Of a DNA stretch of 49,767 nt, positions 55 to 30,035 are shown piece after piece (within the stretch, counting starts at the first letter, position 1; each line of letters opens with the position of its first letter). A program made the position numbers and the translations under genes. Source of the DNA: Magnetococcales bacterium (GTDB taxonomy: Bacteria > Pseudomonadota > Magnetococcia > Magnetococcales > JADFYX01); NCBI GenBank assembly GCA_015231305.1, contig JADGBW010000009.1, forward strand, positions 1 to 49,767. Direction: 5' to 3'. The notes below the pieces were generated by a model. The model had not been told where the DNA came from. It searched no databases and was given only the letters and a program-made list of their open reading frames with translations.

Positions 55-3000
55 ATGACCAAGAGGAGACAAGTAATACTGATCATAGCGGTAATCTTCA
101 TCCTTGGTGGAGTTACTTCCTATGTAGCAAAAAAGTATTTTCTCGCAGTAAAAGATGTAATACCAATAGCATTAGTTGCTCCTATAACTGGAATAAATTC
201 TGTAACTGGTCAATCTATGCTCCGTGGGGCAGAGTTAGCTGTATCACAGTTTAATGAGATATTGGGAGATCGTGGAAAAGAGCTTGAGTTGACCATCTTT
301 GATGATGCTAGCGATGAAACACAGGCAAGGGCAATTGCCAATGAGATAGCTCAGAATGGGGATTATGTCACAGTTATAGGCCATGCAACCGCAAGTGGTG
401 CAAAATCGGCCAGTTTTATATATGAAGACAATCAAATTCCATTTATTACTTTTGCTGCTGGTGGTCGAGAAATTGTTGATGGTAAGGAGTGGGTTTTTAA
501 GATTGGTATAAATGGCTGGCAGCAAGCTAGGTTTCTGGCTAACTATACAAAAAATGTATTAAAACAAAATATTGCTACAATTGTTCATGAAAACTCACTT
601 CTAGGTAAGGAGATGGCCAGAGGGTTTGAGGAGACCTATAAACGTTTTGGTACACGAGTTCGTTTTAAATGGTCATATAACGGCGAAGAAGACAGAAGAA
701 AAATATTTACCGAGGTTATAGAAACACTTAAGGAAAAAAGAGATACTGGCATTATTTTTCTTGCCATGCCTGCTAATGATGCTGCCAACTTTGTAACTTA
801 CGCTAGAGGGGCCAAACTTAAAAACCGTTTTGTTGGACCTGACTCACTAGCAAGCCACGATTTTAGCCAGAAAATTAAAGAGCTAAGTGGTGAAATGGCT
901 GCTAATGACAGCAATAACATTCTACTAACTTCTTCTTTGTTGTGGGATACCGCAGATCAACAGGGCCAGCAATATAATAACGCCTACCAAAAAAGATATC
1001 GTGGGCAGTCAGACTGGATTGGTGCTAACGCATACGATGCCGTCTCTATAGCCATGAAACCTCTTATGCAAGATAGACTTAATCTTGAGATTAAGGCTGA
1101 TCAAGATACAGGTTTTTTTGAAAGTTTGAGACTATTTTTAGATGATGAACCTCAGTATATTGAAGAGGTTGAAGCTCCTATAGTTATCGAAGATGAGGAT
1201 GAAGACTCTCTTTCGGAAGTTGAAAAATCCCGACGTAAAATTCATAAATATCTCCGTTCACTCACATCCCTTGAAAAATCCTATCAAGGGGTTAATGGAA
1301 AAATGTATTTTGATGAGTTCGGGGAGGTGCAAAAAAATATACTGTTGGGGAAATATAACGGAACTCAACTTATCTCAGATTTAACACAGTTGATGCCCAT
1401 TACAGCCAAAGGCAACATCAATTTTATCAATGAAATTAAACAAGGCAGGATGCTCTATGTAAATGACAGGTTTATGTATAAAACCAACGTCGTATACTCT
1501 GGCGTAAATTTAAAAGAGGCATCTAACATCAACCTAGAGGAAAACACGGTAGATTTGGAGTTCTCTATCTGGTTTCGCTATCAAGGTGCTTTTAACCCAG
1601 CTGATTTGCAACTTATCAACGCTGTAGGAGATGTCTCTCTTGGAGAACCAATTGAGGAGTCTATAAAAAAAGACCTTAATTTTAAACTATACAAAGTTAA
1701 AGGCACTTTTCGCCTTAATTTCTCTAATGCATTAAGGCCATATGGTAGTCAAGTATTAGGCTTGTCTTTTCGGCATAAAAACTTAAGCCGGAATAATATT
1801 ATCCTAGTCGTTGACGTTTTGGGTATCCGCTTGGGTAGTGGTGTGCCTCTGTCGGAAACAATTCAAAAGTCAAAAATTATTGACCCAACCCTTGGTTGGG
1901 TTGTAGATCAGGCTTGGTACTCATCTGAAACAACAGTTGAGAGCAGTATGGGTCGTCCCCAATTTGTTGGTTTTGGTACCGAAGAGCCATCTTTTTCTAG
2001 AATGGACTTTGGAGTAATGATCTCCAGTGATTCCTTTTCCATTCGCGATATTGTACCATCAGAATATTTTATATATTTAGGAATTTTTGCGGTTATTGGG
2101 ATCTTTTTTGGGGTCGGAATTGATGCAAGAAACCGGACACTGTTTTTTTCCATAGTATCTTTTGGGCTTTACGCTTTTTCTTGGCCTCTTTTTCTCTTGG
2201 CAAGTGGCAATATCCTTCTAGATTTTGCCGTAAACAATCTCACTATCAGTGCTATAGACTCAATTGTTAGAGTTTATGATATAATATGGTGGTTTATGCC
2301 ACCAGTTTTAATAAATGTTGCTGTTGAAAGGTTTATTTGGAAGCCCCTGGAGAGACGTACAGAACAGATAGTACCAAACATAATTAGAAAATTTGTTTCG
2401 GTAATATTCTACCTATTTGCTTTTTTAGGGGTTATTGCATTTGTATTCGGGCAAGCATTAACCAGCTTGTTGGCAACTGGTGGTCTGCTTACTATGATCA
2501 TTGGCCTAGCTGTTCAGTCTAACATTGCCAATATATTCTCCGGCATTGTGGTTAATATCGAAAGACCATTTTCAGTTGGAGATTGGATAAAAATTGGCCT
2601 TTTAGATGATGCCCAAGTTATTGATATTACATGGCGAACACTCCGTTTAAAAACATTAAGTGGGGTTATTATTAGTGTACCAAACGGCATGGCATCTGAC
2701 GCTGCTGTTTTAAACTATACCGTAGGTGGTGCAACCAAGGTTAAAATCCCTGTTTATGTATCAACTAAACATGATCCATTAGATATAATTGCTCACTTAG
2801 AAGAGGTATGTGCAAATGTGCCACAGTCTTCTGAAGTTAAGCCTATTATGTGTGTTAATAAGGGTGTTGAAAACTTCTTTAGGCAGTGGGTTGCTGTATA
2901 TGAAATTTGGTACTGGCTTGAGGACTATACAGATGGAAGTATAACCCGTGCTCTGTGGGTAGAGATTTTCCGCTATTTTGCCGAACAAGATATCAGCATC

Positions 3001-3114
3001 GATGTTGGTTCAAGAGAAGATGTTCTTGGTGAAAATAAAGAAGTTGAAGAGGGTTTCAAAGAAGCTAGAGAAGAAGATTGGGATCAGAACATGTTAGAGG
3101 AGATGGTTGATTAA
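55..3114 (+). CDS. Periplasmic-binding-protein / Cys-loop-ectodomain-like / MscS fusion channel
   Basis: A 1019-residue inner-membrane protein, probably a ligand-gated mechanosensitive-type channel. Residues 8-30 form an N-terminal membrane anchor. Residues about 35-445 resemble type I periplasmic binding proteins of the branched-chain amino acid family (opening IALVAPITG, then GxxxxRGAELA). Residues about 450-660 carry the motif FSIWFRYQG, a KGTF strand, a PYGSQVLGL segment and IILVVDVLG, a pattern resembling pentameric ligand-gated channel ectodomains; this is inference. About five membrane spans follow (670-840). The last is a clear MscS pore helix and beta domain: GLAVQSNIANIFSG, NIERPFSVGDWIKIG, TWRTLRLKT, VPNG. 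An acidic, charged tail ends the protein. It starts the operon and its stop codon abuts the tolC-like gene. A paralogue with an extra nucleotide-binding domain lies at 13855-17268. MscS and periplasmic-binding domains are secure; the ligand is unknown. Confidence 0.85.
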   Translation: MTKRRQVILIIAVIFILGGVTSYVAKKYFLAVKDVIPIALVAPITGINSVTGQSMLRGAELAVSQFNEILGDRGKELELTIFDDASDETQARAIANEIAQNGDYVTVIGHATASGAKSASFIYEDNQIPFITFAAGGREIVDGKEWVFKIGINGWQQARFLANYTKNVLKQNIATIVHENSLLGKEMARGFEETYKRFGTRVRFKWSYNGEEDRRKIFTEVIETLKEKRDTGIIFLAMPANDAANFVTYARGAKLKNRFVGPDSLASHDFSQKIKELSGEMAANDSNNILLTSSLLWDTADQQGQQYNNAYQKRYRGQSDWIGANAYDAVSIAMKPLMQDRLNLEIKADQDTGFFESLRLFLDDEPQYIEEVEAPIVIEDEDEDSLSEVEKSRRKIHKYLRSLTSLEKSYQGVNGKMYFDEFGEVQKNILLGKYNGTQLISDLTQLMPITAKGNINFINEIKQGRMLYVNDRFMYKTNVVYSGVNLKEASNINLEENTVDLEFSIWFRYQGAFNPADLQLINAVGDVSLGEPIEESIKKDLNFKLYKVKGTFRLNFSNALRPYGSQVLGLSFRHKNLSRNNIILVVDVLGIRLGSGVPLSETIQKSKIIDPTLGWVVDQAWYSSETTVESSMGRPQFVGFGTEEPSFSRMDFGVMISSDSFSIRDIVPSEYFIYLGIFAVIGIFFGVGIDARNRTLFFSIVSFGLYAFSWPLFLLASGNILLDFAVNNLTISAIDSIVRVYDIIWWFMPPVLINVAVERFIWKPLERRTEQIVPNIIRKFVSVIFYLFAFLGVIAFVFGQALTSLLATGGLLTMIIGLAVQSNIANIFSGIVVNIERPFSVGDWIKIGLLDDAQVIDITWRTLRLKTLSGVIISVPNGMASDAAVLNYTVGGATKVKIPVYVSTKHDPLDIIAHLEEVCANVPQSSEVKPIMCVNKGVENFFRQWVAVYEIWYWLEDYTDGSITRALWVEIFRYFAEQDISIDVGSREDVLGENKEVEEGFKEAREEDWDQNMLEEMVD

Positions 3115-5421
3115 ATGTGGCTGCTCACAACGTTGACCCAGAAAAAACTGAGTCTGTTAAGTTGTGTGGGGTGTATATCTTTGTCGATGATACTCTTCAG
3201 TGTTTCTCCGGCATTAGCAAGAGTGCAAAGATTGGAGCCTCTGCTTGTAGACCTTCTAAAAAATAGTAAAAAAATACAAGGTGTACAGACAGACTATGCA
3301 GCACAACAAGATCGTCTAAAATCAGAAAAGGGTAAAATGTTTCCTATTTTAGACGTAACGGCAAACACAGGATTTGAAGAGATCGATGGTGAAGGTTTAT
3401 CATCAGATTCAGACCTTAATTTTAATGAAGTTGGCTTAAAGTTTACCCAAACATTATGGGACTTCGGGGCAACACTCTCAGATATTCGTAAAGGTAAACA
3501 TGCATTAGAGATACAACATTTACTGCTAAAACAGCAGATAAATAACACAATCGTAGATGGCATTACTGTTTTTTTGGAAGTTAAACGGGCATCAATCGCA
3601 TTAGATTATGCAAAAAGATCTGAGTTAAACATTAAACGTCAAGCAAAATTTTCTGAGGTTATGCTAGCTGAGGGTGCAGGTCTATCGTCTGATATTATAG
3701 AAGTAAGAAAGCAGTTAGCAACTGCCCAGACCAAGTTATTTAATGCTGAGCTAGCTATGGTGACTCAGATAAATAAATTTAAAAAAGTGTTTGCTTCAAC
3801 TCCTGTAGATTTTGAAAGTTTTGAAAATCTAGATTTTTCAATTTTAAGCCATGTTCCAAGTACTATCTATGATGTTATTAGCCGAGTTGAAAATAATAAT
3901 CTGGATATTAAATTAGCTGGTATAGACATTGAAAATGCAAAAGAGGACTCTTTTGCTTATAAAAGTCGCTCATTTTTTCCAAAAGTTGAGGCAGTGCTTG
4001 AGAAAAAGTGGAAACATAATGTAGGTGGTACTTTAGGTGATAAAAGTGAGTTTTTAGGTAAAGTCGAATTAAGCATGCCTATTAGTTTTGGTTTTACTGA
4101 AGCTAAAGAGTACATGGCAACAGTTAAAGATAAAGAGTCTCTGGTTATCACCATGGAGTCTCTCAGAGAAGATATAGTAGAAGAGGCTAGAAATGCTTGG
4201 CATAAGCTGATAGCTTCTACAATGATTTGGAAATCTATTAAAGAACAAGCAGATCTTGCAGCAGAATCATTACAAATTGCATACTCTGAAAGTAAGTTTG
4301 GCATTGGCTCTAAGACAAAAACAATGAATTCAGAAACAGCTCTGTTAACAGCGCAAAGTGATGCTGAATCAGCCAGAGTTGATATTTTACTAGATGCTAT
4401 ATCGTTGCTTAACCTTATGGGTGAAATATCAATTGATATTTTATTTAAAAAAGAGTCTCCTGAAGATCTAGCTTATGATCCAATACCAATTTTTCATGGT
4501 AATTTTTCATTAAAGCCTTCAGATAAAGTTGTTGCAATTCTTAAAAAAATTGTCAGTAACGCAAACGAAACACCAGAATCAGCAGACTCTTCATATAACG
4601 AAGAAAATATTAAAATAAAAGATGAAGCTGTTAATGGCTCAGTAAAGAAAGCAGAAAAGAAGGTTGGTGTTAAGGGTGATAGTATAAAGGCAGATGATGT
4701 ATCTAAAGTAAAAGAAGTCGATAAACCAGCAAATAAATCTGAAAGCAGTGTAGTCAAGAGCGATATAGCAGCTAAAGATAATCAAGAGTCAGATAAGGTT
4801 TTAGATAATTCTAACACAATTCCGCAGGCAGTTAAGGGTGATGACACTGTTAAGGCAGAAGCGGAAGAGAAGCCTAAAGTTAAAGAAGAAATTGATGAAG
4901 GTTTGGAGGCTGATGATTATTTTGATAGTGACACAGGAGATAGATATAACCCGGATACCATGCTTACAGATGAAGAGCTTGAGATAGAGAGACTCTATTC
5001 GGTTCCTTCAAATGAGCCTGCTGATGAGGAACTTCTACCTAAAGAGTTACTACCAGCTGAACCTTTAAAAGAAGACATTAAAGATCTGCAACCTGATAAA
5101 CAGTTAAAAGAAGATAAAAAAGAGTCGCAACCAACAAAAAAGTTAAAAGACAACAATAATAAAAAAGGTAAAAGCTCTAGCCCCACATACGGTGAAAATG
5201 CAACAAATGCTGCAAAGCCCCATTACGAGCAACCTACCGCTGTGATAGATGAGGTTGAGGCTGAAAAGGATAAATCACCAGCATATGAAGTTAACCCTAA
5301 CCAGGCTCCTGCATATGAAGTTAACCCTAACCAAGCTCCGGCATATGATGCAGAGCCTAACCAGGCTCCGTCTTATGTTGCAGTGCCTAATCAGGCTCCA
5401 GCTTACGACGCTGAACAGTAA
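3115..5421 (+). CDS. TolC-family outer membrane efflux protein with long repetitive C-terminal tail
   Basis: A 768-residue TolC-like outer membrane channel of a tripartite exporter. A signal peptide ends near residue 36 (VSPALA). Residues about 40-450 have the two-fold helical pattern of the outer membrane efflux family, including the typical TLWDFG near the first half and long helices with regular Ala and Leu. The family normally ends around 450-480 residues. Here about 290 more follow, rich in Lys, Glu, Asp, Ser and Pro, and ending in four 10-residue repeats of the type YEVNPNQAPA. The tail should be periplasmic if the TolC fold holds, and may bind peptidoglycan or partner proteins, but that is inference. 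The ATG directly follows the stop codon of the channel gene, so translational coupling is likely. An HlyD-type adaptor gene follows. No ABC ATPase gene is present in the window. Confidence 0.85.
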   Translation: MWLLTTLTQKKLSLLSCVGCISLSMILFSVSPALARVQRLEPLLVDLLKNSKKIQGVQTDYAAQQDRLKSEKGKMFPILDVTANTGFEEIDGEGLSSDSDLNFNEVGLKFTQTLWDFGATLSDIRKGKHALEIQHLLLKQQINNTIVDGITVFLEVKRASIALDYAKRSELNIKRQAKFSEVMLAEGAGLSSDIIEVRKQLATAQTKLFNAELAMVTQINKFKKVFASTPVDFESFENLDFSILSHVPSTIYDVISRVENNNLDIKLAGIDIENAKEDSFAYKSRSFFPKVEAVLEKKWKHNVGGTLGDKSEFLGKVELSMPISFGFTEAKEYMATVKDKESLVITMESLREDIVEEARNAWHKLIASTMIWKSIKEQADLAAESLQIAYSESKFGIGSKTKTMNSETALLTAQSDAESARVDILLDAISLLNLMGEISIDILFKKESPEDLAYDPIPIFHGNFSLKPSDKVVAILKKIVSNANETPESADSSYNEENIKIKDEAVNGSVKKAEKKVGVKGDSIKADDVSKVKEVDKPANKSESSVVKSDIAAKDNQESDKVLDNSNTIPQAVKGDDTVKAEAEEKPKVKEEIDEGLEADDYFDSDTGDRYNPDTMLTDEELEIERLYSVPSNEPADEELLPKELLPAEPLKEDIKDLQPDKQLKEDKKESQPTKKLKDNNNKKGKSSSPTYGENATNAAKPHYEQPTAVIDEVEAEKDKSPAYEVNPNQAPAYEVNPNQAPAYDAEPNQAPSYVAVPNQAPAYDAEQ
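5281..5418 (+). repeat. 30-bp tandem repeat encoding (YEVNPNQAPA)n
   Basis: Four consecutive 30-bp units plus a partial fifth encode a 10-residue Pro/Asn/Gln repeat at the end of the TolC-like protein. The first two units differ by only two bases and the later ones diverge, which suggests recent expansion at the upstream end. The reading frame is kept throughout. Confidence 0.85.
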
Positions 5422-5526
5422 GCCTATATTTTTCAATAATTCGGCAGGGATTAATTGACCTGACGGATTTAGATTTGTTATTTTTTTAATTTAATTATAT
5501 TTTTTGTTTAAACCAACTTAAAAACT

Positions 5527-6831
5527 ATGAGTGATACAAATAACCAACAAGAGGAACTCGATGACTTGCAGATATCTGCTGGTAATCATCTCTTTTTGTT
5601 TGTAACATTTATTGGTTTTTTTGCCTTTATAATATGGTCTACAATAGGCCGTCTAGATATTGTAAGTAATGCCACTGGTGAGGTAATCCCGGCAAGCCAG
5701 ATAAAAGAGATACAACATCTAGAAGGGGGTATTGTAAATAAAATAATGGTAAAAGAGGGGGATAGAGTAGTTGCTGGCCAGCCCCTTGTCTCTTTAGAGT
5801 CTGTAGGAGCGCAATCAGACTTGGTAGATCTTAAAATAAGGCGGGTTAATGCCCAGCTTAAAATTATTCGTTTAAAGGCTGAATTGGCAAATTTACCAGA
5901 ATTGGTCTATTCCAAAGAGCTACAAGAGCAATTTCCCAATTTAGTTGATCGCAGTATTGCTCTTTTTGTCTCTAGGCAGAAACGTCGAAATAGCCAATTA
6001 AACGCACAAAAAGAGGTTATATTACAGCGAAAGCATGAGATAGCCGGAACATTAGCTCGGCTTAAGTCTAACCGTACTGTTTCTGCACTTTTTCGTGAGC
6101 AGATAAGAATTAGCAAAAAACTTTTAAGTCAAGACCTTTCAAACCGAATGCAGCACATTACACTGTTAATTGATGAATCTAAACTGCAAGGGCAAATTTC
6201 TGAAGATAAAGAGGCGTTACGTCGTATTAAGTCTACGATCCAAGAGGCCCAAGAGAAAGAAAAAACAATAATAAATGCGTTTCAGGAAGAGGCCCAAAAA
6301 GAGTTGATAGAGTCAGTAAGTGAGGAAGAAAAACTAGCTCAACATCTGGTTAAATTTGAAGATAGCTTTAAACGTACAGTTCTGTTTGCACCAGTTGATG
6401 GAGTAATTAAAACATTACATGTGGTTACAGTTGGGGGTGTTGTGCCACCAGGGGGAACTGTAATAGACCTTGTTCCAGGTAAAGACCAACTTATAATAGA
6501 AGCTGAACTTCAAACCGAAGATATTGGTTTTGTCCGTCTTGATCAGAATGTCACTATAAGGCTAGCATCTGCAAACGCAGCCCGTTTAGGGATAATTGAG
6601 GGTAAAGTTACTTCGATTAGTCCTGACACATATATCAACCAAGATGGCATGGCCTACTATAAGCTTCAGGTATCAACAGAACAGTATTATTTCGAACATT
6701 TGGGTACAAAATACCCTCTTGTTCCAGGTATGCAGGTAACATGTGGAATTATAACTGGGGATAGAACAGTGCTAAATTTCTTTTTAGAGCCATTACTTGG
6801 ATCCGCAGTTACTGCTTTACAGGAGCGCTAG
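5527..6831 (+). CDS. HlyD-family membrane fusion protein (type I secretion adaptor)
   Basis: A 434-residue periplasmic adaptor linking an inner-membrane transporter to a TolC channel. It has a short cytoplasmic N-terminus, one membrane span (about 21-42), then the split biotinyl-lipoyl domain (ATGEVIPASQIKEIQHLEGG, followed by VKEGDRVVAGQPLV). A long alpha-helical hairpin covers about 100-275. The second lipoyl half is FAPVDGVIKTLHVVTVGGVV, and a beta-barrel region runs to the C-terminus. Length and order match HlyD/PrtE/LapC adaptors of type I secretion. The gap from the TolC-like gene is 105 bases and AT-rich, with no obvious Shine-Dalgarno before the ATG. The absent partner ATPase may be encoded left of the window. 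Confidence 0.92.
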   Translation: MSDTNNQQEELDDLQISAGNHLFLFVTFIGFFAFIIWSTIGRLDIVSNATGEVIPASQIKEIQHLEGGIVNKIMVKEGDRVVAGQPLVSLESVGAQSDLVDLKIRRVNAQLKIIRLKAELANLPELVYSKELQEQFPNLVDRSIALFVSRQKRRNSQLNAQKEVILQRKHEIAGTLARLKSNRTVSALFREQIRISKKLLSQDLSNRMQHITLLIDESKLQGQISEDKEALRRIKSTIQEAQEKEKTIINAFQEEAQKELIESVSEEEKLAQHLVKFEDSFKRTVLFAPVDGVIKTLHVVTVGGVVPPGGTVIDLVPGKDQLIIEAELQTEDIGFVRLDQNVTIRLASANAARLGIIEGKVTSISPDTYINQDGMAYYKLQVSTEQYYFEHLGTKYPLVPGMQVTCGIITGDRTVLNFFLEPLLGSAVTALQER

Positions 6832-6837
6832 AAGTTA

Positions 6838-8481
6838 ATGGCTGAATCCGAAAACCAACCATCAAAAATTACTTTGCTTGAAAAAGCAACTAATGATTTT
6901 AACGAAAACCTCATTGCCCAGTTTAATGAAATCGATGAGCTGTGGAAAAAAATTATTGAGACTCCAGAAGAATATGGACTGCAAAGTACCTTTAAAAGGT
7001 TGGTGCAGAATATAGGTGACCGTAGTGGTGTGTTTTCTGTTCCCAACCTCAAAGAGCATGCCCTTGAGATTGAAAAAATTCTCTCGTATCCACTCTGGAG
7101 TATGGGAGGTGAACAAAAGTTACAAATAGATAAAATAAGTGGTTATTTATCTCAGATAGGTCAGTCTTGTCGGGGTGTTTTTTCTGATGACCAAGAAAAG
7201 TTTGCACCTGAAAATTATGGCTGGAGGTCAAAAAATCGTCTTGACGAACTAGTAATTGTTATTGTTGAAGATGATGCAGAATTTGTTCAGGGTGTTACTT
7301 CCAAACTAAGGCAAAACGATATGCGGGTTAAGCATGTCACAGCCATAGATGATCTTGGTGATATTCTTAAAAATATGGAGCCAGCAACGATAATTGTTAA
7401 CAATGAAATGGCTCAAAAAAGTAAAGTTCCGTTTGAAATATTGGTAAGTCAGTCAGGTCAGGTTCCACCTCCCATTATCATGATATCAGATACCGATGAT
7501 ATGCAGAAACGATTTGATACTCTGCGGAGTGGGGCAAGCTTTTTCCTGCCTAAAGCTGCCGGGCCTGAACGTATTGTTATGGCTCTTAACTCTGTTTTAG
7601 AGACAAAAAAAACTGGTGAACTAAAGGTAATGGTTGTTGGTGAGTCACGCTATTTGGCAGAACACATAGCTATGGTATTTCACAATATTGGTGCGCGGGT
7701 TGCCTTAGTTGCTAAACCAATGGAGATGCTGCCACCAATGCGTCGCTTTCGTCCTGATGTTCTTCTTATTGATCTAAGAATGTCTATGTGCTCTGGTTTT
7801 GAGCTACAGCGGGTTATCAGGCAAGAGCTTGGATTTTCGCAGACACCAATCATGTTTCTTTCTAGCGATTCAGTAGATATTAGCCTTACCTATGAAAGAA
7901 ATTTAGATATAACCAATTTTATTCCGCTACCTACATCTCAGGTACGTTTGGTGCGGGCTGTCTTAAACTCTATTAAAATCTCCAAGAAAAAAATATTAAA
8001 CACCAATACAGATGCTTTTAGTGGGCATCTTAACCGAGAGGCTTTTTTAGAGAAAATAGACTTGGAACTTATCAGGTGTAAACGGAGCAAAAATAATTTT
8101 TGTATTGCACTGATAGAGTTAGATGCATCAGATGGCTCTTCGGGTACGGTAAGCGAGGTGGCTTTAAAGGGGTTAAGTGATCTTTTAGGTAAATCTTTAC
8201 GGACTTCAGACTTTATTGGTCGTTTAGACGAAGGGCAGTTCGGGACACTTCTGGTTGACTCAGATACCGATGGAGCCATGATAGCAGTAAATAAAACAAG
8301 AGAGATGTGGCATAAGTTACATGCTGGTAATGCAGAGCTAGAAGCTTACAAATCTATATCAGCTGGCATTGCAATGTATCCGGCATTTAATAAATCCAAA
8401 GCAATGTTACGGGGCGCACAAGCTTCACTAGATTCTGCTAAACTTAGTGGTGGTGGAAGTACTATGATTGCCTTTAAATAG
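6838..8481 (+). CDS. Degenerate Hpt-REC-REC-GGDEF signalling protein
   Basis: A 547-residue cytoplasmic protein built from four signalling modules that mostly lack catalytic residues. Residues about 25-110 resemble an Hpt domain, but the phosphorylated His is Gln57 (RLVQNIGDRSG). REC1 (about 138-255) keeps Asp145, Asp146 and Lys239, but the acceptor position reads VNNE, with Asn for Asp. REC2 (about 262-380) keeps an acceptor Asp312 (LLIDLRMS), but the acidic pocket reads GESR and the conserved Lys is lost. The C-terminal GGDEF fold (about 395-547) has RLDEGQF where an active enzyme has RYGGDEF, so it should not make cyclic di-GMP. It probably works as a binding or scaffold protein. It begins seven bases after the adaptor gene and closes the operon, suggesting it regulates the export system or channel. 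Confidence 0.8.
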   Translation: MAESENQPSKITLLEKATNDFNENLIAQFNEIDELWKKIIETPEEYGLQSTFKRLVQNIGDRSGVFSVPNLKEHALEIEKILSYPLWSMGGEQKLQIDKISGYLSQIGQSCRGVFSDDQEKFAPENYGWRSKNRLDELVIVIVEDDAEFVQGVTSKLRQNDMRVKHVTAIDDLGDILKNMEPATIIVNNEMAQKSKVPFEILVSQSGQVPPPIIMISDTDDMQKRFDTLRSGASFFLPKAAGPERIVMALNSVLETKKTGELKVMVVGESRYLAEHIAMVFHNIGARVALVAKPMEMLPPMRRFRPDVLLIDLRMSMCSGFELQRVIRQELGFSQTPIMFLSSDSVDISLTYERNLDITNFIPLPTSQVRLVRAVLNSIKISKKKILNTNTDAFSGHLNREAFLEKIDLELIRCKRSKNNFCIALIELDASDGSSGTVSEVALKGLSDLLGKSLRTSDFIGRLDEGQFGTLLVDSDTDGAMIAVNKTREMWHKLHAGNAELEAYKSISAGIAMYPAFNKSKAMLRGAQASLDSAKLSGGGSTMIAFK

Positions 8482-8893: not shown

Positions 8894-11122
8894 ATGAAAA
8901 TAGATAATGTCAATTTGAAAGTATCCCTACCGGCAGCATTTTTACTATTTATTGGTTCAATTTCATCAATCATACTTATTTCAAGTTTCATAACTTCAAG
9001 TAAGTCTGTAAACCAACTTGCCCAGGAGGTTCTGGTCAAAATTGGTGAGGGCACACTTGATAAGAGTATCAACTATTTAGAAACAGCAGCAAAACTGGTT
9101 CGAGTAAATACCGCTCTTTTTAATCCAGACGAAAACGGCAACTTAGATCTGGACACTTTTAATCAAATAACCAGAGAAGAGATACTTACGTATCCACAGT
9201 TTTCATTGGTTTATTTTGGCAATGAGCATGGCAACCACTGGCTCAACAAGCCAACATCACAAGGCAATATCAGCACTCGTGTTATTAAACGCCTAGATGA
9301 CTCTGCAAAAGGAAAAGAGGTCCTTAGTCAAGCTGCTCAAATGCCAAAAGGTACAGCGGAAGAGAAGCAAGCTGTTGCAGATATGATTGCTCCTTACATT
9401 AAGACCACATGGCGTTATCGTGATAGAGATGGCGATATTTTGCGGACTGAAAATGATCCTTTAAAAATTTATGACCCTCGTGAACGTCCTTGGTATAGAG
9501 GAGCCGTCGAAAATGGAGGGCATTTCTGGACCGATGTTTACACATGGGCCTCTGATGGTGGCAGAAGCTTTCAAGTAGGTATTACAGTAGCTGAGCTAAT
9601 AAAAGATAAAAAAGGTTTGGTTGGTGTTACCGCTGTTGATATTATTCTAAACGATATTTCTAAATTTCTCGGTAGTTTAACCATCGGAAAAACTGGCCAA
9701 GCGTTTATTGTTAACTCTAAGGGCCAGGTTATCGGGCTTAACGATTTCAGCCAAGTTGTAAAAAATAATGATGATGGTAGTGTATCTATAAGACATATTT
9801 CAGAAATTTCTGATAAAACTATCAGCAGGTCATACAGAGCCTTACGTAAGAAGCTCAAAATCAAAGAGAGTGCTCCACTATTTTTTGAAGGTTCACATCA
9901 GCTTAAATTTAGTTCCGCTGGCGAAGAGTATTTTGCCTACTACAGACCATTTAGGCCAGACCATGAGCTAGACTGGGTTATCGGTATTGTTGTTCCAAGT
10001 AGTGATTTCTTAGGAGAGATTAACGGCAATATGCAGATGATGGTCTTTTTCTCAATTATCTGTGTAGTCATAGTTATCTTTATCAGTGTTCGTTTAAGTA
10101 AAAAGATTACTGACCCTCTAAATGAGCTAGCAATTGAGGCAAACAACATCCGGGTGTTAAACCTAGATGGTCCAACAGTACCGCATACAATGTTTGATGA
10201 AATTAATCAGGTGATAGAATCATTCGCCAAGATGAAAGTCGGGCTGCGCTCATTTAGAAAATATGTTCCTACCGATCTTGTGGTTGGTATGATTCAATCT
10301 GGGCAAGAGGCTAATTTAGGCGGCAAAAAAGATGATGTAACAATCTTTTTCTCTGATATTGCCGGCTTCACAAGTATGTCAGAAAAACTAACTCCAGATC
10401 AGTTGGTTCAAGTTCTTGGTGATTATCTAGGAGCCATGAGCGGTATCATTATGAACCGTGATGGAACCCTAGATAAATATATTGGCGATGCAATCATGGC
10501 GTTCTGGAATGCGCCTCAGCCTGTTACAGATCATGCTGTAAAAGCTTGCTATGCAGCTATTGAGAACCAACAAAAACTAGCTGAAATGCGTGTTAGATGG
10601 ATAAATGAAGATCTACCACCAATCGGTTGCCGAATTGGACTACACACTGGTCCAGTTGTTGTTGGTAACTTTGGTTCTGAGCAACGCTTGAACTACACTA
10701 TTATTGGTGATCCTGTAAACCTAGCTGCTCGTCTCGAAAGTGCCTGTAAACAGTACAATATTGGCATTATGATCAGTGAAGCCACTTATATGGCAGCGAA
10801 AGATCATATTGAGGCTCGCCTATTGGATAACATTGCTGTTAAGGGCAAAAAAGAGGGTGTGTTTGTATATGAGCTGTTAGGTCGCAAAGGTAAGCTTATC
10901 CAAGAAGTTAAAGAATTTTCTGAAACTTATGATCAGGGAGTTGAAGCTTACAACGCTAGAGAGTGGGATAAGGCAATTGAATGTTTTGAGAAAGCAGAAT
11001 ATCTCAAGCGTTCAGAAGATCCAGCAGCACGTAAATTAGTAGAGAAGAGTAAAGCATTTAAGCAAAACCCACCTGACGCTAGCCAAGACTTGTGGGCAAC
11101 TGATATATTGACAAGCAAATAA
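8894..11122 (+). CDS. Membrane adenylate cyclase with double-Cache sensor, HAMP and class III catalytic domain
   Basis: A 742-residue receptor cyclase converting ATP to cAMP in response to a periplasmic signal. Membrane spans at about 12-34 and 378-400 enclose a periplasmic domain with Cache features (YDPRERPWYRGA, WTDVYTWASDG, VGVTAVDI). A HAMP segment follows (about 398-450). The catalytic domain spans about 478-665. Metal ligands are Asp488 (FFSDIAGFTSM) and Asp532 (KYIGDAIMAFW). Lys528 and Thr602 (NYTIIGDPVN) form the Lys/Thr adenine-selecting pair of class IIIb enzymes. Asn609 and Arg613 are the transition-state residues. The last 75 residues look like one or two TPR helices (GVEAYNAREWDKAIECFEKA). 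The gene stands alone with its own upstream region. The CNBD channel at 13855-17268 is the nearest candidate cAMP target in the window. Confidence 0.92.
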   Translation: MKIDNVNLKVSLPAAFLLFIGSISSIILISSFITSSKSVNQLAQEVLVKIGEGTLDKSINYLETAAKLVRVNTALFNPDENGNLDLDTFNQITREEILTYPQFSLVYFGNEHGNHWLNKPTSQGNISTRVIKRLDDSAKGKEVLSQAAQMPKGTAEEKQAVADMIAPYIKTTWRYRDRDGDILRTENDPLKIYDPRERPWYRGAVENGGHFWTDVYTWASDGGRSFQVGITVAELIKDKKGLVGVTAVDIILNDISKFLGSLTIGKTGQAFIVNSKGQVIGLNDFSQVVKNNDDGSVSIRHISEISDKTISRSYRALRKKLKIKESAPLFFEGSHQLKFSSAGEEYFAYYRPFRPDHELDWVIGIVVPSSDFLGEINGNMQMMVFFSIICVVIVIFISVRLSKKITDPLNELAIEANNIRVLNLDGPTVPHTMFDEINQVIESFAKMKVGLRSFRKYVPTDLVVGMIQSGQEANLGGKKDDVTIFFSDIAGFTSMSEKLTPDQLVQVLGDYLGAMSGIIMNRDGTLDKYIGDAIMAFWNAPQPVTDHAVKACYAAIENQQKLAEMRVRWINEDLPPIGCRIGLHTGPVVVGNFGSEQRLNYTIIGDPVNLAARLESACKQYNIGIMISEATYMAAKDHIEARLLDNIAVKGKKEGVFVYELLGRKGKLIQEVKEFSETYDQGVEAYNAREWDKAIECFEKAEYLKRSEDPAARKLVEKSKAFKQNPPDASQDLWATDILTSK

Positions 11123-11184: not shown

Positions 11185-13332
11185 TTGTCTATGAAGTTGC
11201 CAGACTTCAATTCACTTATTGGTAAACTACCCGACTTAAAACAAGTATTGGTTAATTTATCAGACTTTAAAACAACGTTAAAAAAACTATCTGACCTCAA
11301 AACAACATTAAAAAAACTACCTGACTACAAAACTTTATTAGATAAAAAAGGTAGAGAAGCCCTCCTTGTATCCGCACAAAATAAGTTTACAGAATTATCA
11401 TCCAAACGTTGGGCGCAAATATCAGCTGGATCTCTTGTATTTATTGCCAGCGGTTTGGTTGTTTGGTGGTTAACTGATGAACCAGATACTAAATCACTAA
11501 AAAAAGATAAAAAAAAGTATGTGACAAGAACTGTTTCTGGTAAAAAAATAGTTTCTCTTAAGCGGGGTGTTAGTTCTAAGGAGTTAGCCGACACACCTGA
11601 AAGGGGAGTAACACCCCATCAAGCTTCTACTAAAAAAACAAGCAAATCTCAAACTAAGTACATTGGAGAAGGAGTTATGATTATTGAGTCGATTCCTTCT
11701 GGAGCAGATGTTTTAATTGATGACAAGATAGTTGGTGAAACTCCATATGAAAGTGAAAGAATCCCCGCTGGGTTATATCATATTCAAGTAAAAAAACTAT
11801 ATTTTACTCCAGAACTTGAGGCAGTTAGGTTAGAGAAAAACTTAACCACAAAACGTAGTTATATATTACGTAATGGAGTTGGCAAATTATCTATAATAAG
11901 TTCACCAACAGCTGCTTCTATATCCATAGATGGCAAAGCAAAAAAAATACAAACCCCTGCTAAATTTAATCAAATAAAAGCCGGAAACCATACCCTCGAT
12001 TTACAATATGGACCGTGTGCTGGTTTATCCATTGATTTTGACCTCAAACATGACCAAACCTTAGAGCTTGATCTTGCTCTTGATGGAGCTGATAAAAGTT
12101 TGTATGAAGGTGAGTGTCTAACAGCTAAGCAGATTCTTATTAAAGAAAAAGAAAAAGAGTTAATTGCAGAGAAAATTAAGAAAGAAGTAGAAAAAAGATT
12201 ACAATTAGAGGCTCTTAAAATAGAACAAGAAGAGAAAGAAAAAAGGCTGAAAAAAGCTAAGAATTTATTAGTTAATATTCAAGATGATTTAAAGCTAGGA
12301 CCGTTAAATATTAAAGATTGGGAAGAGAACCTTGCTATATATTTAGAAGTATTAACTCTTGACCCGGAAAATTTAGTTGCTAAATCAGGCTTAGAAGAGG
12401 TTTCAGAGCAATATCTGCACATGGCAATAGTTGCAGCAAAACGGTATGACTGGAGAATGGCTGAAGAAAATTTAAACAAAGTAAAAAAGTATAATCCAGA
12501 TCTTGAGAGTATAAATATTGTTCAGTCAGAAATAGATTCAGGTCGTAGAATTGAGCAAGAACGCACCCCAGCTACAGCTAAAAAATGGCGTGATCCTAAA
12601 ACAGGTATGGAGTTTGTCTGGATTAATACTGGCTGCTTTTATATGGGGAGTGATTCTGCTGCATCAGACCAAAAACCAAGACATGATGTTTGCATTGATG
12701 GATTTTGGCTTGGAAAATATGAGGTTACAAATAGACAATTTCGGAAGTTTAGATCTACTCATAATAGTAAAAGCTGGGGCGAGTATACTTTAAATGATAA
12801 TGAGCAACCAGCTGTATATGTTAGTTGGGAAGATAGCAAAAAATTTGCTGACTGGATGACAAAACATAGTCGTGGAACATACCGGTTGCCAACAGAAGCC
12901 GAGTGGGAATATGCTGCTAGAGCTGGTTTGCAAACTGACAGTTACTGGGGAAAAGCAGAAGATGAAGCTTGTCAACATGGAAATTTTTTAGACCCACTAA
13001 CAAAAGATAAATTTGCTTGGTCTTGGCAAGAATTTCAATGTGAGGATGATTATTTTGTTACTGCCCCTGTGGGCAAGTTCACCAGCAACAGGTTTGGTCT
13101 ACACGATATGTTGGGAAATGCCTGTGAGTGGGTATCAGATTGGTATGACGAGCACTATTATGCTAAAAGTCAACGCAATAAGCCAAAAGGCCCTGAGAGG
13201 GGGTTCTTTAAAGTGAGTCGTGGTGGTTGTTGGAACAGTGGCCCCCAAAGCACCAGTTTCTCATATCGTCGCAATTACCTGCCAGACTACAAAGTTGACT
13301 ATACCGGTTTCCGCCTTGTAAGAAAGATGTAA
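11185..13332 (+). CDS. Membrane-anchored PEGA / formylglycine-generating-enzyme-like (SUMF1) protein
   Basis: A protein of about 715 residues. The N-terminal 55 residues hold five near-repeats of ten residues (such as LSDFKTTLKK). One membrane span lies at about 76-97. Two PEGA-type beta domains follow at about 162-229 and 232-298 (IIESIPSGADVLID; LSIISSPTAASISIDG), then a charged coiled coil (315-360) and helices. The FGE-sulfatase domain spans about 473-714: GCFYMGSD, YEVTNRQFRKF, YRLPTEAEWEYAARAG, GLHDMLGNACEWVSDWY, RGGCWNSG. The Cys pair of formylglycine-generating enzymes is not present near the end, so sulfatase activation is unlikely; related domains often bind or modify other targets. 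The start is uncertain: TTG at 11185 sits 8 bases from the GGGGG tract, while ATG at 11191 is in frame but 14 bases away. Confidence 0.85.
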   Translation: MSMKLPDFNSLIGKLPDLKQVLVNLSDFKTTLKKLSDLKTTLKKLPDYKTLLDKKGREALLVSAQNKFTELSSKRWAQISAGSLVFIASGLVVWWLTDEPDTKSLKKDKKKYVTRTVSGKKIVSLKRGVSSKELADTPERGVTPHQASTKKTSKSQTKYIGEGVMIIESIPSGADVLIDDKIVGETPYESERIPAGLYHIQVKKLYFTPELEAVRLEKNLTTKRSYILRNGVGKLSIISSPTAASISIDGKAKKIQTPAKFNQIKAGNHTLDLQYGPCAGLSIDFDLKHDQTLELDLALDGADKSLYEGECLTAKQILIKEKEKELIAEKIKKEVEKRLQLEALKIEQEEKEKRLKKAKNLLVNIQDDLKLGPLNIKDWEENLAIYLEVLTLDPENLVAKSGLEEVSEQYLHMAIVAAKRYDWRMAEENLNKVKKYNPDLESINIVQSEIDSGRRIEQERTPATAKKWRDPKTGMEFVWINTGCFYMGSDSAASDQKPRHDVCIDGFWLGKYEVTNRQFRKFRSTHNSKSWGEYTLNDNEQPAVYVSWEDSKKFADWMTKHSRGTYRLPTEAEWEYAARAGLQTDSYWGKAEDEACQHGNFLDPLTKDKFAWSWQEFQCEDDYFVTAPVGKFTSNRFGLHDMLGNACEWVSDWYDEHYYAKSQRNKPKGPERGFFKVSRGGCWNSGPQSTSFSYRRNYLPDYKVDYTGFRLVRKM

Positions 13333-13854: not shown

Positions 13855-16800
13855 TCAAGAGAATAATCTTTTAAATCTTTGCATAAATCCAGAGCTATTG
13901 CTTGTATCAGATGCTAACTGTTTCTCTTTTAGTTTGGCTGCGTGCTCTGCAATTTCTTTGGTACTATCACGAAGCATTTTGTTCCAAAAACCTTTTGTTT
14001 CAACGTCTTGGTTAAAGACACTAAGCAGGTCTTGTTTGTTTATCTCCATAATTCTAACGTTGGTAGTTGCAACCATACCTGCTGTTCTTGTATCGCCATT
14101 TAATATAGCTTCTTCACCAAAATACTCACCTGCTCCAAGTCGTCTTAATTCAATGTTTTTGTCTTCACCACAATTAGTATTTATGGCACATACACCTTCA
14201 ACAATTACAATAATAGACGAGCAAATGTCACCATAGTTGACAATATTCTGGCCAGGAGCAAATTTTTGTATAAGTGAACCATCTTCAACTTTTAATTTAC
14301 ATGGATCTGGTAGGGCGTTATAAAGCCCAAGATCCTCCATCACTCGTTTAGGAGAGAAGGGTTCCTCTGTTTCAATGGCTTCAGCAGTCTCAATTATATT
14401 CCAACGTTTTATAGCAAACTCTATCCCTGCTAAACGTAGGTCAGCCCATATTTTTTTAGCCACTTTTTTGCGAATTGGTAGCAGTTGTCCATAGTCTTGA
14501 ATATTAAAGCCAAGCATATAGTTAGCTGACCACTCTTCTACACCTCTAAAGCTAGCAAAGGGAGGAGGGGTTTTTAATACTTCTGGTACTGATAACAGGC
14601 TTTGTTGGAGAATAGCTTCAACTTTTACTGGAGAGTGTTTGGGGTTTACATCAATAAATATCCAGGTAGATGAGGCACAGGTAGGGCCAGTAAAGTTTTG
14701 GATATTACTCTCAGCAACACTGGAGTTAGGAATTCTAGTTATACTTCCATCTCTATTCCAAATTTTAGTAGTTCTCCAGGTGATATCATCAACTCGTCCA
14801 GCATCAATATCACCTATTTTTACCCAATCTCCAATTCTAAAAGGTCTCTCTATGTTTATAGCAATTCCTGAAAATACGTTGGATATATTAACCTGAATTG
14901 CTAATCCTATAATCATTGCTATCATTCCAGAAGTGGCAAGTAGGCTGGTTAATCTTTGGTCAAATACAAAGGCAATAATGCCAAAAGAAGCTAATACAAA
15001 TATTGAAAGAGTAAGAAAACGTCTGATAATTACAGGGATTTTCTGTTTAGTTTTTTTCTCAAGGGGAGCCCAGAGAAAAGGGGTAGTAGCAAGGTTTATT
15101 ACAAAGGCAGCTGCTAACCACCATAAAATATCAAACACTAAAATAAGTGATGCTACATTATTTGGCGTGGCTGTATCACCAATAAACTCTAATAACAGAA
15201 CTTCGCAAGCTAAAAGCAGAATAAAAGAGCTGAATGTTGTAGATAACCAAAATGTGCGATTTAGCATATTTAGCACAGCAATTTTTGATCTGAAAACAGC
15301 AATTATCAATAAAACAATTGATACCGATAAAAGTATCCTACTTAACTCAGAATCAAACATACCCCGTAGGGACATTTCATCTTTTTGGATAGATAAGGCA
15401 ATGTTAAAGCGAGAAAAGTCTATGTCTTCACTTATATTTAAGTATTGTGGCGAACCGAAAGAGTTTTTTGTTACTGTATCTTGGAAAACTGTTACATCAT
15501 TAAAAAGCCAACCGCTGTTTGCTCCTAAAACTTGCGCTTTATTAAGGGTTTGGGTCAACCCTTCTTTACCACCAAGTTTCATACCTAGAACATCGTTAAC
15601 AAAAATAAGGTTGGTTCTAGGTAGTTTGTTATAGCGGAAGTTAAGACCAAGAATATGGTTAAGCAGTGGGTTGCGAAGAGAGTTGCTGCCATCTAAAAAG
15701 TTGGCTTTAAATTTCCCTTTTATGTGATATCGCTTGTATGTTTGGTTATCAGTAATAACCTCTTCAACTGCTTTACCCAACTTTATGGGTGAAACCTCGT
15801 TAAGAAAAACAATCTCTTTTTCATCTAGTTCGCCATGATAACGAAACCAGAGAAATAGATCTAAATTATATGTTAAATCTTTGAGGTCAAGCTCAGTAAC
15901 TTTATTGATATTAAACCCAACAAAGACCACTTTTACAATGTGCATCTGGTTGTTTTCGACCAAGATAATACGCTTATGTTGGACCGCATCATCCATGTTT
16001 TCAATATCATCTATATTTTTTATAGTCTGTAGCTGAGTTGCTGCTGATATAAGGCTTCTATTTTGAAATTTACCAATTGATATTGGTTTTTGAGCGTCAC
16101 CATTTTCATCAAAAAAGTTTAAGCCTGTAACGCCTTCAATTCCTTGGGCTGAGCTATTTAAACTAGCAAGAAACTCTCGTATTTGCTTGCGCTCTTTTTT
16201 TATAGATTTTATTTTACCTGTAATTTTGTTCTGAATTATTGCCTGCACAATAAGCATAGCAGAGTCATAAGAGTATGCAGCTATCCAATCAGGCTCATCT
16301 TGGAACTCTTTTAAAAATCTCTCCCTAAATATTTGTGCTTTTTCATTTCCTGTATCAAAAATAAGTGGGGTAGCAACGTAAATTCCATTTGTGTAATGGC
16401 CAGGATTATTAATCTCTTTTGGCAGACTGTTAAAGCCATCTCTAAATGATTTTGAGGCAAAAGAGTCAGGGGTAATAATAGGGTTTAGTAGGCCAGCATC
16501 ACGAATTTTGCTGGTAATAATTACCCCTTCTGTTGCGTGGGTTGCTAAAAAAATAGTTCCTGTTTTTTTATTGTTTTTTAGCTGTTTAATAATATTGTCA
16601 ATTGAGCTAGTAAAATTTTTATCTCCAACAACTATTTCACCTCTATATTGAACATTCAAATTAAGGTTTTTTGCTGCAATGGCAAAATTATCTGCTAATG
16701 AACGACCATATGTAAGGTTTTCACTGATAATAGAGACATTATCTGAACCCAAAATTGATTTTGTATAGTTGGCTAAAAATCGCCCTTGTAATCTGTCGTT

Positions 16801-17268
16801 AAAAACTGCTCTGAAGTACCAATCGTTATCTTGTGTAACAGAAATATCAGTAGATGTAGGAGATATAGCAGGTATTTGGTTTTTTTTGTAAACTGGGCCA
16901 GCACTTCTTGAACTAGAGCTGTAATTGTGTCCAATAACAGCAACAGCTCTATTATCTTTAACTATTTTTTGAGCCATTTTAAGAGCTGTTTGGGGATTGT
17001 TTTGATCGTCATAGAAATCTAAAACAATTTTTTTCTGGTTTTTATCTCGACTTTCATTGTGTATATCAACATATAATTGCGTACCGCGCTTTATAGATTG
17101 ACCTTTAATGGCAGTTTTACCAGAAAGTGGGCCAACCACAGCAATATGTATCTCATCGTCCCATTGCAGGGGATCTGCTGCCAAACTAGGGTTGATTGTG
17201 GCAACTATTGATAAAAAAACTGCTAATATTGCAAAGAAACGTAAATAAACTGCATTGAAATTAGTCAT
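13855..17268 (-). CDS. Periplasmic-binding-protein / Cys-loop-ectodomain-like / MscS channel with C-terminal cyclic-nucleotide domain
   Basis: A 1137-residue paralogue of the channel at 55-3114. A cleavable-looking signal sequence ends near residue 30 (INPSLA). Residues about 38-415 form a type I periplasmic binding protein (IHIAVVGPLSG, IKRGTQLYVD). Residues about 440-630 carry FLWFRYHGELD, FLNEVSP, KGKF and LIFVNDVLG, the same Cys-loop-ectodomain-like pattern as the paralogue. About five membrane spans (640-805) lead into an MscS pore (GLAIQVNISNVFSG, NIERPFRIGDWVKIG, TWRTTKIWNRDGS, IPNS). Residues about 990-1095 are a cyclic-nucleotide-binding domain with a good phosphate-binding cassette (FGEEAILNGDTRTA: Glu1052, Arg1061). 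The channel could be opened or closed by an outer ligand and by cAMP or cGMP inside. It is transcribed alone. The MscS and nucleotide-binding parts are secure; the ectodomain call is inference. Confidence 0.88.
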   Translation of the reverse strand: MTNFNAVYLRFFAILAVFLSIVATINPSLAADPLQWDDEIHIAVVGPLSGKTAIKGQSIKRGTQLYVDIHNESRDKNQKKIVLDFYDDQNNPQTALKMAQKIVKDNRAVAVIGHNYSSSSRSAGPVYKKNQIPAISPTSTDISVTQDNDWYFRAVFNDRLQGRFLANYTKSILGSDNVSIISENLTYGRSLADNFAIAAKNLNLNVQYRGEIVVGDKNFTSSIDNIIKQLKNNKKTGTIFLATHATEGVIITSKIRDAGLLNPIITPDSFASKSFRDGFNSLPKEINNPGHYTNGIYVATPLIFDTGNEKAQIFRERFLKEFQDEPDWIAAYSYDSAMLIVQAIIQNKITGKIKSIKKERKQIREFLASLNSSAQGIEGVTGLNFFDENGDAQKPISIGKFQNRSLISAATQLQTIKNIDDIENMDDAVQHKRIILVENNQMHIVKVVFVGFNINKVTELDLKDLTYNLDLFLWFRYHGELDEKEIVFLNEVSPIKLGKAVEEVITDNQTYKRYHIKGKFKANFLDGSNSLRNPLLNHILGLNFRYNKLPRTNLIFVNDVLGMKLGGKEGLTQTLNKAQVLGANSGWLFNDVTVFQDTVTKNSFGSPQYLNISEDIDFSRFNIALSIQKDEMSLRGMFDSELSRILLSVSIVLLIIAVFRSKIAVLNMLNRTFWLSTTFSSFILLLACEVLLLEFIGDTATPNNVASLILVFDILWWLAAAFVINLATTPFLWAPLEKKTKQKIPVIIRRFLTLSIFVLASFGIIAFVFDQRLTSLLATSGMIAMIIGLAIQVNISNVFSGIAINIERPFRIGDWVKIGDIDAGRVDDITWRTTKIWNRDGSITRIPNSSVAESNIQNFTGPTCASSTWIFIDVNPKHSPVKVEAILQQSLLSVPEVLKTPPPFASFRGVEEWSANYMLGFNIQDYGQLLPIRKKVAKKIWADLRLAGIEFAIKRWNIIETAEAIETEEPFSPKRVMEDLGLYNALPDPCKLKVEDGSLIQKFAPGQNIVNYGDICSSIIVIVEGVCAINTNCGEDKNIELRRLGAGEYFGEEAILNGDTRTAGMVATTNVRIMEINKQDLLSVFNQDVETKGFWNKMLRDSTKEIAEHAAKLKEKQLASDTSNSSGFMQRFKRLFS

Positions 17269-28157: not shown

Positions 28158-30035
28158 ATGAATTGTGTCACTATAAAATCCGATGAAGTAAGTGAATGCC
28201 TTCACGATCACCCATATTTTTCAAGATTTCCTATGGAAGTCTTGAAGGCAATCTCTTCAAATGTGGTTCGTATACACCTCGTACCAGACCAAGTTTTTAC
28301 CCCTTCTGAAGATAACGCAAAGTCAATCTACCTTATTCACCATGGCACTATTGTTATACATGGGGCTAAAAATCAGGCGGTTACAAAACTTGGGGCAGGG
28401 GAGCTGTTGGAAATGGGCGCATTTATTGATGAAAAAAGTGGCAAACCTCAGACAGTAATAGCAAAAAGCTTGGATGAGGTTCTTATGTTTCAAATTTTCA
28501 TGGATAACATTGCCAAATATGCCTCTAATGAAGAGTTTGTTAATGCTTTAGATGTGCCAAGCACAGGGGATAGGCTACGTCGTGCATTGGAGAGAAGGCA
28601 GCAAGAAAATACACCCCAATCTGGAAATTTTCTTACTATGCCTGTCAAGAGCCTCATAAAACGAGAACCTATTTCTATGAGTGAAAATGACTCTATACGT
28701 GATGTAGCCAAAGCGATGATGAAAAACAGGGTTAGCTGTATGTTACTAACCAAAAATTCAAAGTTATCTGGTATTGTTACAGATCGTGATTTACGTTGCC
28801 GAGTACTTGGTGGAGGAGTATCTCGCAAACAGCCGGTTTCTAAAATAATGACGGCCTCACCTATGACCATAGATATCAACGCCTACGGGTTTGAAGTTTT
28901 GATGTTAATGTCCCATAACAACATTCATCACGTACCTGTTTTGATGAAAGGCAAACCTGCTGGCGTAATTACTAATACCAATATGCAGCAATGCCAAACA
29001 ACTTCTTCAGTATTTATGGTAGGCGATGCATACAAACGTAAGTCAGTAAGTGGGTTACGTATGATTGCTAAGCGTGTTCCTGAATTGATGAGCGGTTTGG
29101 TGCAAGGTGGAGCTTCTCCTCATGCCACAGGCCAAATGGTAACAACAGTAACAGATGCCATTAATATCCGTATTTTACAGATAGCAGAAAAAAAACTTGG
29201 TCCACCTCCTGTTCCTTATGCATGGATGGTAGCTGGATCTCAAGGTCGACAAGAGCAGACAGCACTATCTGATCAGGATAACTGTTTAGTGTTGGATAAT
29301 GCCTATGACCCAGTTAAACATGGAGACTATTTTAAAGAGTTTTCCCAGTTTGTCTGTTCTGGACTTAATGAGGCCGGTTATGTTTTTTGCCCTGGTGATA
29401 TTATGGCGCAAAACAATAAGTGGCGTAAACCTTTAAAAAAGTGGAAGAAATATTTTAATAAATGGGTAACAGAACCCAAGCCAGATGCATTGATGAATGC
29501 CAGTACATTTTTTGATCTACGTTTTGTACATGGAGAGCAGGGGTTAGCAAAAAGCCTTAATAAGCATGTTCGTAAACTTTGCAGTCAAAATAGTCTATTT
29601 TTAAGTATATTGGCACGTAACTCAATCCAGTTTCACCCACCTCTTAGCATATTTAAAAATCTGGTTCTTATAAAAGGTGGAGAAAACGATAAAACTATAG
29701 ACTTAAAAAGCAAAGGCATTATACCAATTGTAGAGTTGGCAAGGGTCTATGCACTAAATGACGTTTCAGACCCTGTAAATACTCGCGATAGATTAATAGC
29801 TGCTGCTGATGGAAAAGAGATTAGTCGCAGTGATGCACTTGACCTTAAAGATGCCCTCAAGTTCATATCTCTTACTAGGCTGCGTCATCAAGCACGGCAA
29901 GTAGACTCTGGCCAAACCCCTAATAATTTTCTACCAATAAATGAGTTAAGCCTTTTTGAAAGAAACCACCTTAAAGATGCTTTTACTCAAATACAGACCA
30001 TGCAATCTAGCCTTGAGCGCAGATATAACATCTAA
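28158..30035 (+). CDS. CNBD - tandem CBS - DUF294 nucleotidyltransferase-like protein
   Basis: A 625-residue cytoplasmic regulatory protein. Residues about 18-125 resemble a cyclic-nucleotide-binding domain. Its phosphate cassette (GAGELLEMGAFIDEKSGKPQ) lacks the usual Glu/Arg pair, so cAMP binding is doubtful. Two CBS domains follow (about 160-215 and 225-280: MSENDSIRDVAKAMMKNRVS, GIVTDRDLRCRV, HNNIHHVPVL). The DUF294 nucleotidyltransferase-like core (about 300-480) has AGSQGRQEQTALSDQDN, with Asp372 and Asp374 as likely metal ligands. A DUF294_C substrate-binding-like helical domain closes the protein. This layout resembles GlnD-like uridylyltransferase relatives. It neighbours type III glutamine synthetase on the opposite strand, which may hint at a nitrogen or energy link (inference). 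Confidence 0.88.
   Translation: MNCVTIKSDEVSECLHDHPYFSRFPMEVLKAISSNVVRIHLVPDQVFTPSEDNAKSIYLIHHGTIVIHGAKNQAVTKLGAGELLEMGAFIDEKSGKPQTVIAKSLDEVLMFQIFMDNIAKYASNEEFVNALDVPSTGDRLRRALERRQQENTPQSGNFLTMPVKSLIKREPISMSENDSIRDVAKAMMKNRVSCMLLTKNSKLSGIVTDRDLRCRVLGGGVSRKQPVSKIMTASPMTIDINAYGFEVLMLMSHNNIHHVPVLMKGKPAGVITNTNMQQCQTTSSVFMVGDAYKRKSVSGLRMIAKRVPELMSGLVQGGASPHATGQMVTTVTDAINIRILQIAEKKLGPPPVPYAWMVAGSQGRQEQTALSDQDNCLVLDNAYDPVKHGDYFKEFSQFVCSGLNEAGYVFCPGDIMAQNNKWRKPLKKWKKYFNKWVTEPKPDALMNASTFFDLRFVHGEQGLAKSLNKHVRKLCSQNSLFLSILARNSIQFHPPLSIFKNLVLIKGGENDKTIDLKSKGIIPIVELARVYALNDVSDPVNTRDRLIAAADGKEISRSDALDLKDALKFISLTRLRHQARQVDSGQTPNNFLPINELSLFERNHLKDAFTQIQTMQSSLERRYNI

Follow-up and report, generated by a model that had tools for sequence, protein, structure and literature searches.

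P0005, a gene in the 49,767-nucleotide stretch of Magnetococcales DNA analysed here (the window), encodes a 1137-residue protein in which a LIV-type periplasmic binding protein (PBP) and a domain homologous to the extracellular domain of pentameric ligand-gated ion channels (pLGICs) precede an MscS-type pore, followed by a cyclic nucleotide-binding domain (CNBD). We established the identity and order of these domains, their recurrence, the CNBD phosphate cassette and the pocket residues of the PBP. We regard the domain anatomy of P0005 as close to certain (Table 1).

The reading frame opens with an ATG preceded by a purine-rich GGTGAG and runs without an internal stop; PBP, MscS pore and a CNBD with the cassette Gly-Glu and Arg thus lie in one unbroken frame. 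Pfam gave rise to four matches, each exceeding its curated cut-off: Peripla_BP_6 (residues 39–402, 4e-35), MS_channel_2nd (795–860, 2.7e-20), MS_channel_3rd (880–951, 4.9e-7) and cNMP_binding (1001–1088, 2.2e-16). The AlphaFold model of the full-length protein (pLDDT 81) comprises an N-terminal hydrophobic helix, two outside domains, five transmembrane helices and a cytoplasmic part; the CNBD is poorly modelled, with only one aligned relative carrying a CNBD. The N-terminal helix would export the next two domains. The pore aligns to E. coli MscS (2vv5, 1.4e-13) with pore helix and β-domain both present, and the fifth transmembrane helix (773–807) is the MscS pore helix in both model and alignment. 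The CNBD aligns to PKG and PKA regulatory domains and sits after the MscS C-terminal domain, its phosphate cassette intact. No Rfam elements were found around P0005. Its convergent neighbour in the window (11185–13332, TTG start) encodes PEGA domains and an FGE-sulfatase-like domain, and window positions 28158–30035 encode a DUF294 nucleotidyltransferase with two CBS domains and, in front, a weak CNBD (below cut-off).

A sequence-only reading of this DNA had described P0005 as having the architecture of the window's first channel (P0001) plus a CNBD that keeps Gly-Glu and Arg. The Pfam order agrees with this description, and the cassette FGEEAILNGDTRTA was found as quoted. The same reading had spoken of a merger of four modules: the CNBD, the MscS pore and the PBP are indeed there, but the pLGIC-type ectodomain, the most unusual module, had been missed.

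Table 1. Coordinates of P0005, its parts and the related genes discussed in the text.
Feature	Record	Positions	Strand	Residues	Description and basis
P0005, whole gene	window	13855..17268	-	1137 aa	signal/anchor, binding protein, pLGIC-type ectodomain, 5 TM with MscS pore, CNBD
N-terminal hydrophobic helix, probable signal peptide	window	17169..17268	-	1-33	sequence; helix 3-30 in AF2 model
LIV-type periplasmic binding protein domain	window	16063..17154	-	39-402	PF13458 4e-35; LivJ/LivK structures (phmmer, Foldseek)
pLGIC (Cys-loop)-type extracellular domain	window	15325..15990	-	427-648	AF2, Foldseek, BLASTP, hhalign
Five transmembrane helices	window	14848..15351	-	640-662, 667-697, 702-740, 746-768, 773-807	AF2 model, MscS alignment
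MscS β-domain and C-terminal domain, cytoplasmic	window	14416..14886	-	795-951	PF00924, PF21082, 2vv5 1.4e-13
CNBD, cassette FGEEAILNGDTRTA	window	14005..14268	-	1001-1088	PF00027; PKG/PKA-R structures
P0001, paralogue ("first channel")	window	55-3114	+	1019 aa	P0005 order without CNBD
Nearest class III cyclase	window	8894-11122	+		dCache-HAMP-cyclase; Pfam
Binding protein + pLGIC	L176	2418-4712	-		nearest ectodomain to the MscS-borne ones
C222 copy	L127	4923-8513	-		TAA after first TM helix: PBP-ectodomain frame + pore-CNBD frame
Tandem CNBD-less + CNBD gene pair, Thiotrichaceae	L105	7150-14897			
Tandem CNBD-less + CNBD gene pair, Thiotrichaceae	L106	2038-8557			
Tandem CNBD-less + CNBD gene pair, Thiotrichaceae	L107	5508-12087			

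The ~220 residues between the PBP and the pore (residues 427–648) matched no Pfam family, and a sequence profile of this middle domain matched no chain in the PDB; the question of its identity was settled instead by a fold search and by a link to a pLGIC, L176. The AlphaFold model of the middle domain, for which the alignment was restricted to family members with an MscS pore, reached a pLDDT of 87. In a Foldseek comparison with the PDB, Cys-loop receptor ligand-binding domains (LBDs) made up 50 of the 50 best matches listed, headed by AChBP (E 1.9e-9, probability 1.00), with a loose superposition (TM 0.5–0.6, ~6 Å). The same bacterial order has proteins of 710–760 residues that consist of a PBP and a complete pLGIC, and hhalign matched the MscS-family middle domain to the LBDs of such PBP-pLGICs with a probability of 98%. 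An ectodomain profile built solely from MscS-bearing proteins and run over 399 genomes matched PBP-MscS proteins, PBP-pLGICs and plain pLGIC-like proteins of 350–400 residues, and nothing else among those examined. L176, which combines a PBP with a pLGIC, matched this profile at 3e-42 (per genome). Judged by its sequence, L176 is an unambiguous pLGIC: its phmmer matches to an ELIC/GABA-A chimera (6e-13) and to ELIC (6e-9) span both ectodomain and pore. BLASTP aligned P0005 with the L176 ectodomain at 7e-28 (27% over 204 residues).

Because the fold match, the profile matches and the L176 link come together, we conclude that the middle domain is homologous to the pLGIC ectodomain, beyond mere likeness. 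A generic β-sandwich that came to resemble pLGICs by convergence would fit the failure of the sequence profile to find a PDB chain, but it deserves almost no credence: the MscS-only profile also matches plain pLGICs, and the direct sequence link to a true pLGIC (phmmer from L176 to ELIC, BLASTP from P0005 to L176) contradicts it. L026, L027, L033, other PBP-pLGICs and L172–L174 are true pLGIC relatives that fall below the Pfam Neur_chan_LBD/memb cut-offs or are missed.

Compared with canonical pLGICs, P0005 has the β-sandwich extracellular ligand-binding domain, as seen in the AlphaFold model, the Foldseek matches and the homology to L176. It lacks the Pro-loop signature (YPFDxQ) with the pre-M1 Arg, reading NPLLNH there, and it has five helices with an MscS pore in place of the four-helix pLGIC pore. 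Among MscS-type members the Pro-loop Asp, which faces the pore in pLGICs, is replaced by Gly in 61/72, and the pre-M1 Arg has mostly become Pro or Lys; PBP-pLGICs keep both residues. Positions that face the pore in pLGICs were thus altered along with the replacement of the pore, and the coupling between ectodomain and pore therefore cannot be exactly pLGIC-like.

A tree of the ectodomains places the proteins with an MscS pore in one clade (100/97), with L176 as the nearest pLGIC (95/76) and the other PBP-pLGICs outside. This topology favours, as its simplest reading, a single event in which an MscS pore took the place of a pLGIC pore, and L176 appears to be a living intermediate of that swap. 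The sensor block (PBP plus pLGIC-type ectodomain) is, as far as homology can tell, borne by two unrelated pores, and the data suggest that in evolution an external sensor belonging to one ion-channel family was transferred to the pore of another. The PBP tree does not conflict with a shared sensor block. When a single solo family serves as outgroup, the two receptor groups come together (100/100); with wider outgroups the deep order was not resolved and a one-clade test (p 0.46) did not reject a single clade. We dropped this tree as proof of a shared block since the wider outgroups leave the deep order unsettled. The P0005 pore itself groups with the PBP-MscS family, apart from two bCNG-like proteins of the order.

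The middle domain occurs in 74 named loci, nearly all in Pseudomonadota, and complete frames of the family have the order PBP, ectodomain, MscS. Most members are without a CNBD, a form present in ~70 species. The CNBD form is rare (n = 7), with three copies in the P0005 genome (C42, which is P0005, C115 and C222), one in a sister species of the same genus, and three in Thiotrichaceae (L105, L106 and L107, from Parabeggiatoa, Thiomargarita and one further member). An initial scan of the genome contigs with the P0005 sequence alone gave no match. The search across genomes for the full domain order, proposed earlier as a check, found it again in C115 (55% identical to P0005), in the same-genus genome and in the three Thiotrichaceae, with C222 split; recurrence in other contigs and genomes rules out an assembly artefact or chance as the source of the P0005 order. 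The split C222 copy is either a broken gene or a real fission, and the same-genus copy consists of two loci, L013 and L126, at contig ends that share an exact 77-nt overlap. The pore region of L017 (same-genus genome G003) is identical to that of L040. Two records, L098 and L073, are labelled Mesoflavibacter and Helicobacter cetorum, and L098 groups with Rhodospirillales; the labels may be wrong or the genes may have moved.

All CNBD forms fall within one clade of 13 rows (100/99), on which the presence of the CNBD needs up to four changes. In all three Thiotrichaceae assemblies the CNBD gene lies in tandem with a CNBD-less paralogue (Table 1). The two kinds of partner fall into distinct clades (100/97 and 98/95); the pairing is therefore ancient and has been maintained, and the arrangement hints that the two products may act as heteromers.

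Four residues of P0005 (S117, T140, Y187 and E247) are the equivalents of Ser79, Thr102, Tyr150 and Glu226 of the leucine-binding protein, which we take to be its pocket residues. P0005 thus has the LIV-type fold together with an amino-acid pocket; P0001 and most of the family are without these residues. For P0005, though not for the family, our best guess at the PBP ligand is therefore an amino acid. At the other end of the protein, 7/7 CNBD-bearing members retain the cassette Gly-Glu and Arg; a consistent loss of these residues among homologues, named in the sequence-only reading as a refuting outcome, was thus not observed. It is rather improbable that the CNBD has become a tail with a structural or assembly role and no nucleotide binding, leaving sensing to the outside: close relatives do without a CNBD and in C115 the Thr-Ala after the cassette Arg is gone, but Gly-Glu and Arg persist in two distant groups and the Pfam scores are well over the cut-off.

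The three cyclases noted earlier in the region are all class III (the one listed in Table 1, 32988–34499 and 34782–36257), and the nearest is a possible source of cyclic nucleotide for P0005. Their proximity had been offered as support for cAMP control. We found that 0/3 share an operon with P0005, whose genome has 18 class III cyclase matches and 31 CNBD matches. Class III cyclases are present in 48/48 genomes of the order (2–20 each), with or without the CNBD form, and in all nine other genomes checked. Co-occurrence, the second proposed check, was accordingly uninformative and shows only that cyclic nucleotides are likely available.

With moderate confidence, we propose that P0005 is an inner-membrane receptor-channel with gating from the outer side and tuning from the cytoplasm. 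The LIV-type domain, probably binding an amino acid, would sit atop the pLGIC-type ectodomain, which would be linked through the extra transmembrane helices to the MscS-type pore, with the CNBD on the cytoplasmic cage. The ectodomain would relay solute binding on the outside to the pore, whose ease of opening would be set by cAMP or cGMP at the CNBD. The scaffold would have originated when a PBP-pLGIC swapped its four-helix pore for an MscS pore, one branch gaining the CNBD afterwards. Putative control from both sides is well founded as anatomy; conduction, gating by both ligands and the identities of those ligands we infer. Against this explanation we counted the altered Pro-loop Asp and pre-M1 Arg, the mismatch between pLGICs, which are pentamers, and MscS channels, which are heptamers, the loose Foldseek superposition, the lack of a PDB match by the ectodomain profile, the poor CNBD model and the CNBD-less majority. 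We put somewhat short of an even chance on a separate class of receptor-channel, born of a natural pore swap, in which a nicotinic-type ectodomain would drive an unrelated MscS pore, probably of seven-fold symmetry, across a remodelled coupling interface, with a second, cytoplasmic cyclic nucleotide input and, in Thiotrichaceae, heteromers of CNBD and non-CNBD subunits.

Two other functions were weighed against the receptor-channel. Rather than serving as a route for solutes or ions, the family might be a regulator tied to adhesin export or surface attachment, which would signal the presence of an external solute to the machinery of secretion or biofilm formation. This is doubtful, though the gene neighbourhoods give it some substance: 51/74 loci (L040–L113) adjoin type I secretion genes, a giant exoprotein (laminin-G, Calx-beta, cadherin-like) or a two-partner-secretion exoprotein, and TolC, HlyD and REC-GGDEF genes lie downstream of P0001 (window 55–8481). 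P0001 fits this setting, but P0005 and the rest of the CNBD branch lie outside such operons, and the idea is compatible with channel action. Less likely still is a tension-gated safety valve resembling MscS, whose outside domains and CNBD shift the threshold, for example in response to osmolytes, with no ligand alone opening it. The pore helix and β-domain are close to those of E. coli MscS, and one MscS-CNBD channel has been described as gated by mechanical tension (title cited in PMC4560390); yet a plain valve would hardly account for two binding modules conserved before the pore in ~70 species, and the extra transmembrane helices set the pore apart. L148 (1474–3705, minus strand) joins a TRAP-type-looking binding protein to one of LIV type, beside a sensor-kinase-like gene in the same genome.

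Every module of P0005 is already known. PBP-pLGIC fusions were described by Tasneem et al. (2004; PMC549065), with ectodomain and four-helix core staying together, 'preserving the core module'; like P0005 they place an N-terminal type I binding protein directly before the pLGIC ectodomain, and both domains are related to those of P0005, which differs in its MscS pore and CNBD. Jaiteh et al. left extra domains aside. DeCLIC (PMC12664993) likewise has an additional periplasmic N-terminal region, but of another fold, on a pLGIC pore and with no CNBD. The bCNG channels of the MscS superfamily (Caldwell 2010; Malcolm 2012; both cited in PMC4560390) resemble P0005 in that a CNBD follows the MscS pore at the C terminus. 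Ionotropic and metabotropic glutamate receptors also carry a type I binding-protein domain outside (mGluR was among the structure matches), an analogy only, as they differ in the second sensor and in the pore or transduction domain. We know of no bCNG channel with a binding protein or pLGIC ectodomain. The literature searched gave nothing relevant on a pLGIC or binding-protein domain on an MscS pore; many subscription papers lie outside its coverage and an earlier description is possible. That literature contained no account of the combination, above all of an MscS pore that bears a pLGIC ectodomain.

In the pLGIC literature searched, ectodomain and four-helix pore always occur together. Should an MscS pore prove to be driven by a pLGIC-type ectodomain, one could test directly which features of the ectodomain carry a general signal and which serve coupling to a particular pore, by comparing one sensor block in its pLGIC, L176-type and MscS-type versions. 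The same sensor fold stands on pentameric and heptameric families, so subunit number would be testable as well. P0005 would also show a route by which outside solute sensing and second-messenger control may be joined in one bacterial protein.
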